Origin: Lutibacter flavus
GTDB lineage: Bacteria; Bacteroidota; Bacteroidia; Flavobacteriales; Flavobacteriaceae
Length of the DNA stretch: 36,410 nucleotides
Direction: 5' to 3'
NCBI GenBank assembly: GCA_945903795.1
Contig: CAMDPE010000007.1
Coordinates: forward strand, 1 to 36,410
Shown here: in pieces, positions 1 through 28,471 of the stretch
Layout: the number at the start of each line of letters is the position of its first letter
Position numbering within the stretch: the stretch's first letter is position 1
Position numbers and translations under genes: made by a program
The notes under the pieces: generated by a model
Told to the model about the DNA's origin: nothing
The model's input: the letters and a program-made list of their open reading frames with translations, nothing else
Databases searched by the model: none

Positions 1-78
1 AGTTTTTCTATTTACCCCATAATAGTTGAGTTTAATTCATTTTATTTGTTGTTTCAAAGAAGATAAAAATTTGTGAAA

Positions 79-162
79 ATGAAACGAGCATTACAACATT
101 TGACACACAACCGAATGATTAATAGTGAACAGCATCTTTTCCCACAAAAAAATAAAAATTAA
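79..162 (+). CDS. Putative small ORF (27 aa, MKRALQHLTHNRMINSEQHLFPQKNKN), tandem copy 1
   Basis: ATG at 79, TAA at 160-162; aligned in frame with the ORF at 167-244; below the length cutoff of the supplied ORF track. Confidence 0.4.
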   Translation: MKRALQHLTHNRMINSEQHLFPQKNKN

Positions 163-166
163 GCAG

Positions 167-244
167 ATGAAACGAGCATTACAAATTTTGATGTGCAATG
201 GAATGATTCATAGCGAACAGCATCTGCTCCCAATAAAAAAATAA
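167..244 (+). CDS. Putative small ORF (25 aa, MKRALQILMCNGMIHSEQHLLPIKK), tandem copy 2
   Basis: ATG at 167, TAA at 242-244; shares MKRALQ.L...N.MI.SEQHL.P with copy 1. Confidence 0.4.
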   Translation: MKRALQILMCNGMIHSEQHLLPIKK

Positions 245-255
245 AAATTAAGCAG

Positions 256-828
256 ATGAAACGTATTGCCATACTGGCCTCAGGATCCGGCACCAATGCT
301 GAAAACATCATCAACTATTTTAAAAACAGCGATGCGATTTCGGTGGATTTGGTATTGTCCAATAAAAAAGAAGCCAAAGTTTTAGAACGCGCCACCAGAT
401 TAAAAATACCAAACAGAAGTTTTGACAAAAATGATTTTGTGGAGACCGATGAAGTGTTAAATCTTTTGAAAGAAAATGCAGATTATGTAATTCTGGCGGG
501 ATTTTTATGGAAAATTCCTACAAAAATTATTGAAGCTTTTCCGAATAAAATCATCAATATTCATCCTGCTTTGTTGCCAAAATATGGCGGAAAGGGTATG
601 TACGGAATGCTTGTGCACAATGCCGTAGTTGAAAATAAGGAAAAACAAACCGGCATTACCATTCATTATGTGAATGAAAATTATGATGAAGGCGCCATTA
701 TTTTTCAGAAAAGTTTTGTGGTTTTGGAAAGCGATTCTGCAGATGACGTTGCCGAAAAAATTCATAAATTAGAATATGAATACTTTCCGACAGTGATTGA
801 AAAAGTGATTTTAGAAAATGGCCGATAA
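256..828 (+). CDS. purN: Phosphoribosylglycinamide formyltransferase
   Basis: MKRIAILASGSGTNAENII N-terminus; NIHPALLPKYGGKGMYG and TGITIHYVNENYDEGAII motifs of PurN. Confidence 0.95.
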   Translation: MKRIAILASGSGTNAENIINYFKNSDAISVDLVLSNKKEAKVLERATRLKIPNRSFDKNDFVETDEVLNLLKENADYVILAGFLWKIPTKIIEAFPNKIINIHPALLPKYGGKGMYGMLVHNAVVENKEKQTGITIHYVNENYDEGAIIFQKSFVVLESDSADDVAEKIHKLEYEYFPTVIEKVILENGR

Positions 829-1303
829 ACCCAAAGTACATATTTATACCGACGGCGCCTGCAGCGGAAATCCGGGTCCGGGCGGCTACGGAATTGTGAT
901 GGAATGGGTTGGTAAACGCTACCGAAAAGAGTTTTCTGAAGGCTATAAAAAAACCACCAACAACCGCATGGAATTGTTGGCGGTAATTGTTGCGCTTGAA
1001 AACATGAAAACCACAGATGTGGATATCACTATTTTTTCCGATTCAAAATATGTGGTGGATGCCGTTGAAAAAAAATGGCTGTTTGGCTGGTATAAAAAGC
1101 AATTTAAAGGCGTTAAAAATCCCGATTTGTGGAAACGATTTTTAGCCATCTACAATCCGAATAACACAAAATTTGAATGGGTAAAAGGGCACAACAACCA
1201 TATGCAAAATGAACGTTGTGATGTGTTGGCTGTTGAAGCTGCAAAAACGGGAAATCTTAAGGAAGATACTGGTTATATCAATCAGGAAAAACCTCTTTTT
1301 TAA
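818..1303 (+). CDS. rnhA: Ribonuclease HI
   Basis: IYTDGACSGNPGPGGYG, NNRMELLAVI, FSDSKYV, WVKGHNNHMQNERCD motifs; 11-bp overlap with purN. Confidence 0.95.
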   Translation: MADKPKVHIYTDGACSGNPGPGGYGIVMEWVGKRYRKEFSEGYKKTTNNRMELLAVIVALENMKTTDVDITIFSDSKYVVDAVEKKWLFGWYKKQFKGVKNPDLWKRFLAIYNPNNTKFEWVKGHNNHMQNERCDVLAVEAAKTGNLKEDTGYINQEKPLF

Positions 1304-16854: not shown

Positions 16855-19800
16855 CTAATTTTTTGGACTATTCAAACCTTTGCCGCTTCTGGTTAACATT
16901 GATAAAGTGTACTCTTTTCCATCTATTTTAATTTTTGTTTTTTGGTGTATTTCCAAAATTTGAACTTCTTTACCTTCATTAACAGTATTGATTACCTCAT
17001 ATTTTTGATCTACTGCCCTGAAAATAACCGGTTCAATTGGTGTATTGAGATGAAGTGCTTTACAAATCTCATCTAATACATTTTTATCCAAAGTGAATTC
17101 TTTATTTTTCTGTGTTTTATTTGCGAATTCAGACATTGTTTTTTCGGAAATAGTGCTTTTTACTCCAACGGAAGTGACTTTTATGATATTGTCGTTCACC
17201 AATGCTACATTGGAATTGGTTATTATTTGGTCTTTTTCTAAAGATAAATCACCTAAATTATGATCGTTGGCCAAAGCACCAACTTCTACACGTATACAAA
17301 AGAAAGATCCTGGACTTCCACAGTCAGTGAATCCAACTTTCGTTATTATCGTAATTTTTATGTGGATTGATTCAATATTGTCACCATTTTCCTCTGGTCC
17401 AGCATTCTCCATAATATTGCCTTTTATGGAGCCGTCCCAACCTTTTCGCAAGTTGACAAATGCTTCTGCAATCATTTTTATATCAGCTTCATTCGCTGCA
17501 TTTTCAACTTTATTTCCTTTTATGGAACCATCCCAACCTTTTCGTATGTTGACCAATGTTTCGGCAATAGATTTTACATCAGCTTCATTAGTCAAATTTT
17601 CAATTTTATTGCCTTTTACAGAACCATCCCAGCCTTTTCGCGCCAAGTTCACTAATGTTTGAGCAGTGGATGTTACTAAATTGATATTTTCACTTTTAGC
17701 TTCGTTCTGTTTAAGTCCGTTTTCCTTAATTCCTTTTTTCTCTGCAATGTTTCCTTTTATACTTCCATCCCAGCCTTTTCGAAAGTTGACTAATATTTCG
17801 GCAATGGCTTTTACTTCGGCATCAGTCAAAACGTATTCAGTTTCATTCTTTTTTAAACCGTTTTCTCTAATTCCCTTTCTTTGGGTTTCCTCTGAAGCAG
17901 TTTCAATATCACTCTTTTTTACACCTTGTTCTTTAATAGCTATTTTTTGGGGTCCATCTGAAGCAGTTTCCATTTCATTCTTTGGTAAACCTTGTTCTTT
18001 AATTCCCTTTCGTTGGGTTTCATCTGAAGCAGTTTCCAATTCATTCTTTTTTAAACCGTTTTCTTGAATTCCTTTTTCGGCTATATTTTTCCCTTTAATA
18101 CTTCCGTCCCAACCTTTTCGTTGGGTTTCATTTGAAGCAGTTTCCATTTCATTCTTTGGTAAACCTTTTTCAGTAATTCCTTTTCGTTGGGCTTCATTTG
18201 AAACAGTTTCCACTTCATTCTTTGGCAAACCTTGTTCTTTAATTCCTTTTCGTTGGGCTTCATTTGAAGCAGTTTCAACATCATTCTTCTTTATTCCGCT
18301 TTGTGTAATTCCTTTTCGTTGGGCATCATTTGAAGCAGTTTCCATTTCATTCTTTGGTAAACCTTTTTCGTTAATTCCTTTTCGTTGCGTTTCATTTGAA
18401 GCAGTTTCCACATCACTCTTTTTTACGCCTTGTTCTTTAATTGCTATTTTTTGGGTTCCATCTGAAGCAGTTTCCACCTCATTCTTTTTTAAACCGCCTT
18501 CTTGAATTCCTTTTCGTTGCGTTCCATCTGAAGTAGTTTCAATATCACTCTTTTTTACACCTTGTTCTTTAATAGCTATTTTTTGGGGTCCATCTGAAGC
18601 AGTTTCCACATCACTCTTTTTTACGCCTTGTTCTTTAATTGCTATTTTTTGGGTTCCATCTGAAGCAGTTTCCACCTCATTCTTTTTTAAACCGCCTTCT
18701 TGAATTCCTTTTCGTTGCGTTCCATCTGAAGCAGTTTCAATATCACTCTTTTTTACACCTTGTTCTTTAATTGCTATTTTTTGGGGTCCATCTGAAGCAG
18801 TTTCCATTTCATTCTTTGGTAAACCTTTTTCGTTAATTCCTTTTCGTTGGGTTTCATTTGAAGCAGTTTCCATTTCATTCTTTGGTAAACCTTTTTCAGT
18901 AATTCCTTTTCGTTGCGTTCCATTTGAAGCAGTTTTATTTTTACGACAAGAGCCATCAGGACAACGTCTATAAGTTATTCCAATACCAAAACTCATATAA
19001 TTTTCTGGCCCTTTGGTATTTGTCATTACTTTTGGTGCGGCAGCAATATTTTTTTGAAACTGGTCGGGAGAAATTGGCGGTGCCAAGTTCACGTTAGTCA
19101 AATCTCTATATCCCGTGGTAAATTCTTTTTGCCCGGTTTGCATTAAATACTGTGCATTTGCTGTCAGCGCAAAATTTTCGTTAATCCAATAGTCAAAACC
19201 GATACTTGGTTTCAAACTAAACGCATTTGTTTTATAGTCTTGAGGCGCATTATAACTGGCAATACTTTTTGGTGGCGTGCTTTTATCCATCACGGAGAAT
19301 TCTGGCGCCTTGTTTATGGTCAATCCTCCTTTTAATGCAACTGTAAATGTAAGTTTATTGTGAAAAGGAGTATGTCTTCCCGACTCATTACTTTGAGAAG
19401 GACTTAAGGGAATTGTATATTGTGGCCCAAGCATAAAGTACGTGCTGGTCCATTCACTTTTTGTATTTGTAATGGTCAAAAAATCTAAATTTTGCAATGG
19501 AGCAGCATAAGCATCAAAATCAAAATCAGGTTTGGTGCTGAATGTTCCGGCATCTAAACCAATCCCAAAGTTTTTCCAATGTATTGCGATACCCAAACTT
19601 GGATTAAAACTCAAACTATTGTCAATACCCGTTGAAGAAGAAGTTCCGCCATTGGCATTTAAAGAAACCATCATAGTTGGTTTTGGGTTATGACCAGCTT
19701 TCACACTAATTCCTTTAATAGGGGTGCTTTCTGTTCGTGCTTGTTGATTTCCAGCGTTATTTACAGGAACGCATTCCCCGTTTTGCATTATAAATCCATC

Positions 19801-20265
19801 CGGACAACTAATTGAATTCGTCATAACGGCATCATTCCAACCTAGTTTACCCGAAAGCGTTGCGCCACCTTTTGGAACTGTGATTGTGATGCTGCTATTT
19901 TGTTTGTCAATAGCAAAAACATTTCCTTCTGAAGCTTTTGAATTTACGGTTATTTGCGAATTGTCTAAAACCATTTCAACTCCAGAACCATCGTATTGAT
20001 AGTTGCTTTTGGGAAAATTAGATTTTACAATGCTATTGATACTGGTTTGCAATTGATCCTGCGGAAATGAAAGTTCATAAACACCTTCGCTAAGTTGGGT
20101 TGAGAAACCGCCTCCATTTCCTGTTGGGACTGTAATATTTGCTCCTCCAGGATTTTTTTTAACCACAATTCCAACACCTGGAATTGGGGTAGTATTCGCA
20201 AAACTATTTTGCGCAATTAAAAGGAAAACGATCAGGATTTTGAAAATTGATTTTGAATATTTCAT
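16855..20265 (-). CDS. Large secreted/outer-membrane protein with barrel-like domain and Lys/Glu-rich tandem repeats
   Basis: Signal peptide MKYSKSIFKILIVFLLIAQNSFA; residues about 190-440 barrel-like (FGIGLDAG, YFMLGPQYTIPL, MSFGIGITYRR); long in-frame repeat region; unique C-terminal domain. Confidence 0.8.
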   Translation of the reverse strand: MKYSKSIFKILIVFLLIAQNSFANTTPIPGVGIVVKKNPGGANITVPTGNGGGFSTQLSEGVYELSFPQDQLQTSINSIVKSNFPKSNYQYDGSGVEMVLDNSQITVNSKASEGNVFAIDKQNSSITITVPKGGATLSGKLGWNDAVMTNSISCPDGFIMQNGECVPVNNAGNQQARTESTPIKGISVKAGHNPKPTMMVSLNANGGTSSSTGIDNSLSFNPSLGIAIHWKNFGIGLDAGTFSTKPDFDFDAYAAPLQNLDFLTITNTKSEWTSTYFMLGPQYTIPLSPSQSNESGRHTPFHNKLTFTVALKGGLTINKAPEFSVMDKSTPPKSIASYNAPQDYKTNAFSLKPSIGFDYWINENFALTANAQYLMQTGQKEFTTGYRDLTNVNLAPPISPDQFQKNIAAAPKVMTNTKGPENYMSFGIGITYRRCPDGSCRKNKTASNGTQRKGITEKGLPKNEMETASNETQRKGINEKGLPKNEMETASDGPQKIAIKEQGVKKSDIETASDGTQRKGIQEGGLKKNEVETASDGTQKIAIKEQGVKKSDVETASDGPQKIAIKEQGVKKSDIETTSDGTQRKGIQEGGLKKNEVETASDGTQKIAIKEQGVKKSDVETASNETQRKGINEKGLPKNEMETASNDAQRKGITQSGIKKNDVETASNEAQRKGIKEQGLPKNEVETVSNEAQRKGITEKGLPKNEMETASNETQRKGWDGSIKGKNIAEKGIQENGLKKNELETASDETQRKGIKEQGLPKNEMETASDGPQKIAIKEQGVKKSDIETASEETQRKGIRENGLKKNETEYVLTDAEVKAIAEILVNFRKGWDGSIKGNIAEKKGIKENGLKQNEAKSENINLVTSTAQTLVNLARKGWDGSVKGNKIENLTNEADVKSIAETLVNIRKGWDGSIKGNKVENAANEADIKMIAEAFVNLRKGWDGSIKGNIMENAGPEENGDNIESIHIKITIITKVGFTDCGSPGSFFCIRVEVGALANDHNLGDLSLEKDQIITNSNVALVNDNIIKVTSVGVKSTISEKTMSEFANKTQKNKEFTLDKNVLDEICKALHLNTPIEPVIFRAVDQKYEVINTVNEGKEVQILEIHQKTKIKIDGKEYTLSMLTRSGKGLNSPKN
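17405..17790 (-). repeat. RKGWDGS(I/V)KGN repeats (four copies here, a fifth inside the 22-aa array)
   Basis: Repeated translations RKGWDGSIKGN / RKGWDGSVKGN with ENxxNEADVKxIAExLVNxR linkers in two units. Confidence 0.9.
17836..18933 (-). repeat. Coding tandem array: sixteen units, fifteen of 22 aa (66 bp) and one of 36 aa (108 bp)
   Basis: Units such as TASNETQRKGINEKGLPKNEME / TASDGPQKIAIKEQGVKKSDIE; 15x66 + 108 = 1098 bp, matching the interval. Confidence 0.93.
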
Positions 20266-28123: not shown

Positions 28124-28471
28124 TTATTTTTGTTTTGATGTTATAATTATTTTATTGACTACTCTTGAAATATTACTTATTTGCTCTAATAATTCTTCAA
28201 CATTGGGATAATTCTTTGAATATTTACAAAGCTCTAACCAATAAATTGTTTCTTCTATCTCTTTAGCGGAAATTTTAAATTTATGTATAAAATCCGCTTT
28301 ACTTTCTGCATTTTGTGCTTCTCTTATATTTGCACCGATGGATGTTCCAGATTTAAGAAGTTGATTGGCAATTATAAATCTCCTGTCTTCCTGTAAAACC
28401 TCACAATATTTAATAATTTCTAAAGCAAATTGAAAAGTTAATTTGATAATGATGTTGTCTTTTTCTTCCAT
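28124..28471 (-). CDS. Four-helix-bundle protein (23S rRNA intervening-sequence protein family)
   Basis: QLLKSGTSIGANIREAQNAESKADFIHKFKISAKEIEETIYWLELC, typical of the family. Confidence 0.93.
   Translation of the reverse strand: MEEKDNIIIKLTFQFALEIIKYCEVLQEDRRFIIANQLLKSGTSIGANIREAQNAESKADFIHKFKISAKEIEETIYWLELCKYSKNYPNVEELLEQISNISRVVNKIIITSKQK

Follow-up and report, generated by a model that had tools for sequence, protein, structure and literature searches.

At the left edge of a contig of Lutibacter flavus, two similar short open reading frames stand in tandem directly in front of purN, and the sequence at which they meet recurs at the purN start codon. What is this doubled leader, and is it a property of purN? 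The window analysed here is a stretch of 36,410 nucleotides whose start coincides with the contig edge of a draft assembly (3.17 Mb in 306 contigs). A sequence-only reading had described a tandem pair in which each copy carries its own ATG and a short ORF, and had considered a small-peptide family, translated leader ORFs acting on purN, or a neutral duplication. The description was correct: the units, of 88 and 89 bp, are 83% identical, both open with ATGAAACG, which reappears at the purN start (256), and the TAAAAATTAAGCAGATGAAACG junction is present again at the purN ATG. The feature is thus real and unusual, but it was misread as a pair local to purN. The relevant features are as follows.

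79 to 166, + strand: element unit 1, 88 bp, ATGAAACGAGC...AAGCAG (nhmmer with the family model, E 2.6e-18; from the window alone, 4.3e-19)
167 to 255, + strand: element unit 2, 89 bp (nhmmer, E 9.7e-20; from the window alone, 1.6e-20)
79 to 162, + strand: upstream ORF 1, 27 codons, stop TAA at 160-162, 4 nt before the next ATG
167 to 244, + strand: upstream ORF 2, 25 codons, stop TAA at 242-244, 11 nt before the purN ATG
221 to 228, + strand: internal pairing segment of unit 2, CATCTGCT, pairing with 251-258; the pair covaries across the family
251 to 258, + strand: 3' terminus of unit 2 and purN start codon, AGCAGATG, together forming the second arm of the stem
133 to 140, + strand: equivalent internal segment of unit 1, CATCTTTT, which by its sequence pairs only partly with 162-169
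256 to 261, + strand: ATGAAA target repeat at the right junction, with further copies at 79-84 and 167-172 (empty site in L110)
256 to 828, + strand: purN, the host gene (TIGR00639, 151 bits, just above the cut-off)

The nearest named relatives of this PurN are encoded in Lutibacter metagenome assemblies (85-90% identity). Within the window, the two units were the only significant nhmmer matches, and a Pfam search with upstream ORFs 1 and 2 gave no match. Elsewhere in the window, positions 16855-20265 encode a predicted protein of 1136 aa with many degenerate tandem ETASDGTQRKGIQEGGLKKNE-like repeats before its C-terminal part. An ORF at 28124-28471, between sufB-like and sufC-like genes, encodes a 115-aa protein that we presume, from its appearance by eye, to resemble the four-helix 23S rRNA intervening-sequence protein family.

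A dispersed family of short repeats

The first 400 bases of the window gave 44 matches spread over many contigs of this genome, and matches to the unit elsewhere in the genome reached an E value of 4e-52, far beyond chance. Pattern searches of the same genome recovered 61 sites with the core and 59 with the exact 5' end. A profile search of the stretches around these sites identified at least 67 units, which are grouped into 51 arrays containing one to four units each, and an additional copy on contig C234 was seen by pattern search only; these copy numbers are lower bounds, because the counting relied on searches and on the stretches around the copies rather than on the whole genome. Most of the 36 sampled congeners carry the element, and a 94-nt consensus had matches of 100% identity in two other genomes. 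Outside Lutibacter, the element was found in two more genera of Flavobacteriaceae among about 400 genomes of the order, and a weaker resemblance was seen in a genus from a different family (G037, G052).

In oriented alignments, the units begin with ATGAAACGAGC and end with AAACAG, followed directly by ATGA(A). The alignment of 108 units contained no terminal inverted repeats, as ATGAAACGAGC and TTTAAACAG are not inverted copies of each other. An Rfam search of window positions 1-1000 and ten loci returned nothing on the element above the gathering score, and we found no description of such an element in a literature search whose coverage stopped short of subscription journals and preprints. 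In three genomes, units (L089, L091 and L155) contain a nested CCTGCC...GGCAGG palindromic repeat around GCGAAC/CAGCA, at nearly one insertion point within the element. One further locus, L193 (G000:C62, 2041-2079), holds just the 3' half of a unit before a thymidylate-synthase-like gene; the unrelated sequence upstream of it may be another repeat.

Insertion at start codons

The recurrence of the junction at the purN start turned out to be a family-wide rule: about 50 arrays each end at ATGA(A), usually a gene start. Among the arrays with a readable right side, the following ATG began a reading frame that was 60 codons or longer, or that had no stop before the fetched stretch ended, in 46 of 50. 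Non-coding ATGAAA sites in the same DNA coincide with gene starts in 58% of cases, so the 92% for arrays represents an excess (p about 1e-7, a rough value because the gene calls are simple). The units lie directly 5' of ATGA(A), always in the sense orientation relative to the gene, and ATGAAA is therefore found at both junctions. The sequences to the left of the arrays are unrelated to one another, as are the flanks in general. The same six bases stand on both sides of 54 of 83 arrays, and empty sites hold a single copy of the target. In another genome, one copy (L084) interrupts a coding gene, at a GATGAAA within it, and a few copies precede no gene. Host genes were named from N-terminal motifs, PurN alone having been tested by a model; from their first residues we take them to include PurN, phosphoglycerate kinase, thymidylate synthase, pantetheine-phosphate adenylyltransferase, D-Ala ligase, cysteine synthase and many signal-peptide proteins.

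Two loci can be followed among relatives. The purN site is empty in two close relatives, L110 (...AATTTGTGAAA|ATGAAACGTATTG) and L109, holds one unit in L108, of which unit 2 of the window is the recognisable counterpart, and holds two in L155 and in the window genome. The pgk site is empty in G027, whose gene is 94% identical, and in most other genomes; it is occupied in G000, G003 and G005, with one unit in the window genome and two in G005, and G019/G036 have a separate old copy. These occupied and empty sites indicate that insertion is precise and leaves the native promoter and leader in front of the element. We are close to certain that the feature is a mobile element that targets start codons.

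These results dispose of both purN-centred readings. A neutral local tandem duplication would account for two adjacent similar copies and for the higher identity of units within arrays (mean 90%, against 80% overall), but the unit occurs genome-wide before unrelated genes and is present in zero, one or two copies at purN among relatives, which refutes such a duplication as a full explanation and leaves it exceedingly improbable. A leader or attenuator specific to purN is contradicted by the same empty sites and by the presence of the element before dozens of unrelated genes.

A covarying stem that includes the start codon

Within the alignment, an internal segment, CATCTGTT, is complementary to the 3' end of the element together with the start codon of the gene, AACAGATG. 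This is the sole conserved stem, joining positions about 54-61 with the 3' end and the ATG; the loop between them is A-rich and spans about 20 nt. All four Watson-Crick pairs occur between the base immediately 5' of the ATG and its partner, and the two change together: a Watson-Crick pair is present here in 108 of the 115 distinct segments, against a permutation value of 43 +/- 4.8 (C-G 51, G-C 43, A-T 9, T-A 5, with three T-G wobbles), although related copies are not independent and such statistics overstate the certainty. Sliding the partner position as a control gave about 8% pairing.

Matched changes in the deviant copies led to the prediction that the base preceding the ATG is the complement of its partner. 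This was checked by a genus-wide pattern search for units with a non-C partner base, in which only the partner base was fixed. CATATG units had a CATATG end with a single distinct exception; CATTTG units, apart from one mismatch, ended in CAAATG or a wobble form; and CATGTG units had a CACATG end almost throughout. Adjoining pairs also change jointly, as in the CTGCT/AGCAG of the purN units, and orthologous copies before an acyltransferase-like gene have undergone a compensatory change in place, CATATGTT/AACATATG in one form and CATATGCT/AGCATATG in the other, a double change from T-A to C-G. Predicted stem energies range from -4.5 to -9.5 kcal/mol. The 8-bp stem of unit 2 lies at the stable end (-9.5 kcal/mol, both in isolation and within the fold of 201-270); judged by its sequence, that of unit 1 is a decayed version. 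The common CAGCTG-type units carry a mismatch against the A of the ATG, and a different fold is predicted for them. There is hardly any room for doubt that the stem is real; that it acts in the mRNA is, in our judgement, slightly the better bet.

At five of five independent loci with the less common A-T or T-A stems (L032, L197, L204, L206 and L218, with their orthologues), the leftmost ATG and the gene ATG are preceded by an identical base, a match absent from the common types. A guide that selects the base at position -1 of the target was considered and set aside, as these five variants agree with it and the large C-G and G-C classes disagree. A local AACAG-CAT-CTGTT hairpin was likewise discarded, since it is not retained in the CATGTG or CTGCT types.

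The motif GCGAACAGCA is nearly invariant across the family. In set A, an ortholog set from four species, the 3' half of the element is 3% divergent, compared with 16% for the flank and 26% for the 5' half. Of the five clean ortholog sets, two (A and B, not C, D or F) clearly keep the 3' half conserved in place, and in set B one copy may have been replaced by another. The near-invariant motif, the 3' half kept in place in sets A and B, and the 46 of 50 arrays at gene starts, above the expectation from non-coding ATGAAA, would all suit a regulatory leader, that is, a regulon element placed by selection for which mobility is only the means of spread. Its supposed targets, however, look unrelated by N-terminal sequence (PGK-like, PurN, thymidylate-synthase-like and ligase-like), occupancy varies among close relatives, the L084 copy lies inside a coding gene and a few copies precede no gene at all, so that we hold this reading to be improbable.

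Open and closed upstream ORFs

The frame from the left ATG is open to a stop near the next ATG in 24 of 66 units of this genome and in 15 of 42 elsewhere, and the stop of these open units most often lies exactly 4 nt before the next ATG. The remaining units have a stop at codon 5 or a frameshift (e.g., MKRA or MKRAITNFDT..ND, each ending in a stop). An early in-frame stop or frameshift is present in 42 of the 66 units of this genome; the peptide is hence not needed for the spread of the element, and a conserved peptide is unlikely. Although the intact ORFs of 25-27 codons in both window copies and in about one-third of all units had pointed to a small-peptide (microprotein) family, most units are closed, the amino acids of orthologous copies vary freely in the 5' half, and the peptides have no match in Pfam or NCBIfam. 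This reading is largely refuted by the closed frames, and we give it almost no weight.

The idea that the ORFs are translated leaders fared better in part. Many loci have leaders whose ORF is missing or frameshifted, which speaks against it as a general rule. Where the frame is open, it has stayed open: 35 in-register units with a sense codon at position 5 contain no stops in codons 6-20, when 7.9 would be expected for their divergence, and the codon-5-stop class has stops in 4 of 29 units, with 6.3 expected, figures that are only suggestive because the copies are related. The frame is open in all four species of set A, and the usual distance of the stop from the gene ATG would suit translational coupling. 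The early stops in 42 of 66 units rule out coupling as a property of every copy; for the open copies, coupled translation through the upstream ORF is a tentative proposal, to which we give somewhat less than an even chance. In leaders of the translational-attenuator or coupling kind, an upstream ORF traverses a stem in which the start codon is sequestered, and such leaders are locus-specific. The Lutibacter element differs in being a portable leader whose ORF is closed in many copies. Gene start regions in Flavobacterium johnsoniae usually lack structure, have a preference for A at -3 and -6, and tend to be free of additional AUGs (PMC6847099). Against this background, the stem over the AUG, the C at -3 and the upstream AUG that the element brings to a gene start are unusual, and the stem and upstream AUG would fit coupling.

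Search for the mobilising enzyme

The stem may alternatively belong to the DNA. It could represent the pairing of a guide with a cleavage site in single-stranded DNA during transposition, with no role in the mRNA, and start codons would then dominate because ATGAAA is the target and insertions at other sites have been lost. Such pairing is used by IS200/IS605 and REP enzymes (PMC6006769), the stem spans the insertion junction that a strand-transfer enzyme would have to recognise, and in new subfamilies the two sides have changed in step. These points are countered by the compensatory change and strong conservation in orthologous copies that appear to be fixed (sets A and C), and by what was found of Y1 transposases.

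The single Y1 transposase gene of this genome lies on contig C27, bordered by other REPs and unlinked to the element. At this locus (L107, G000:C27, 1376-2680), the Y1 protein is 153 aa long and carries a YIANQEAHH motif that resembles subclass 1.2 of PMC6006769; its gene is followed by closely packed palindromes of other kinds (GCACCATAGGTGC, CCTCTACGAGG and GCTCCAGAGGAGC). Homologues of the C27 enzyme were found in 11 of 38 genomes of the genus and any Y1 in 20 of 38. Y1 genes are present in 15 of 17 element-rich genomes and in 5 of 21 others (p 9e-5), a correlation from which we claim no link, because the rich genomes may be related, two of them lack Y1 and the element does not flank Y1 genes. 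No Y1 transposase was found in the element-rich genomes G018 and G028 (both 88% complete), and at the 47 Y1 loci fetched the element was not bordering, with one locus having it nearby. The Y1-less rich genomes and the Y1 loci free of the element argue against Y1/RAYT as the mobiliser, and we consider a purely transpositional stem possible, with odds well short of even.

In this 306-contig draft, all but two of the exact ATGAAACGAGC sites begin short units, the two others lying in unrelated sequence, and no longer autonomous copy was present among these exact 5' ends. A search of viral contigs for carriage by phages gave no match.

A proposed mechanism and its relation to known repeats

Taken together, the explanation that we favour, by a modest margin over all others combined, is a non-autonomous element, about 88 bp long and lacking terminal inverted repeats, that inserts at ATGA(A), rebuilds the start site, forms the stem and often contributes a coupled upstream ORF. 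Insertion at ATGA(A), nearly always a gene's start codon and invariably in the orientation of that gene, keeps the native promoter and 5' UTR upstream of the left ATGAAA; the gene receives a new start region composed of the A-rich 3' end of the element and the gene's own ATGAAA. In the mRNA, the internal segment would pair with the last bases of the element and the gene AUG. For many copies, the ribosome site native to the gene would drive the short upstream ORF through the stem to a stop shortly before the AUG, and its translation would open the stem and hand ribosomes to the gene by coupled re-initiation, so that the insertion would be tolerated. Such coupling would explain why insertions are tolerated and why a class with open frames exists. 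Where the ORF is closed, copies would have to depend on direct initiation from the A-rich loop or on weak stems. Arrays may grow by further insertion or by local duplication. We infer that this tolerance is the cause of the preference for start codons. More speculatively, the element may represent a new class, in which insertion occurs between the native ribosome site and the AUG, that site is reused for the upstream ORF, expression is kept by the stem and the mobiliser is not of the Y1 type; we would put this at roughly one chance in three.

Several known repeats share some of these properties. MITEs, BOX, RUP, Correia and ERIC are likewise short, mobile, non-autonomous and of high copy number, and MITE-type repeats, like the element, can alter the expression of neighbours (PMC10969869). 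A short direct target duplication, of 6 bases here (54 of 83 arrays), is also a MITE trait, whereas the Lutibacter element has no terminal inverted repeats, a single fixed orientation, the start codon as its target and a junction that pairs with its own internal segment. A text search of that review found mention of neither 'start codon' nor Bacteroidetes. REPs are also short repeats moved in trans, by RAYT/Y1 enzymes, with guide-cleavage pairing as a possible analogy (PMC6006769, PMC3733652), but the element has neither the compact palindromic hairpin nor the 5' guide tetranucleotide, and it is other palindromes (GCACCATAGGTGC) that border the Y1 gene of this genome. Rickettsia palindromic elements are similarly small, mobile, ORF-bearing repeats that enter genes yet spare them; they fuse in frame inside ORFs (PMC10969869), whereas the element inserts at the start codon, 46 of 50 arrays preceding a gene start, and leaves the protein unchanged. 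The TAACTGA repeats of Beggiatoaceae, Cyanobacteria and Bacteroidetes also lie within a few bases of the start codons of many unrelated genes and in their direction, but they are tandem 7-bp heptamers with no ORF, covarying stem or start-codon duplication (PMC4679880).

Implications

For annotators, short ORFs before genes in this group may be repeat copies, and the covarying junction offers a handle for finding the transposition machinery. Pairs of Lutibacter genomes in which the same gene has an occupied and an empty site are natural material on 5' UTR change in bacteria without Shine-Dalgarno sequences, so that the effect of the 5' UTR on translation is directly testable. If the proposed mechanism is true, the element spares its host by exactly re-creating the start codon, and in this way alters the translation start of dozens of genes in a single genome.
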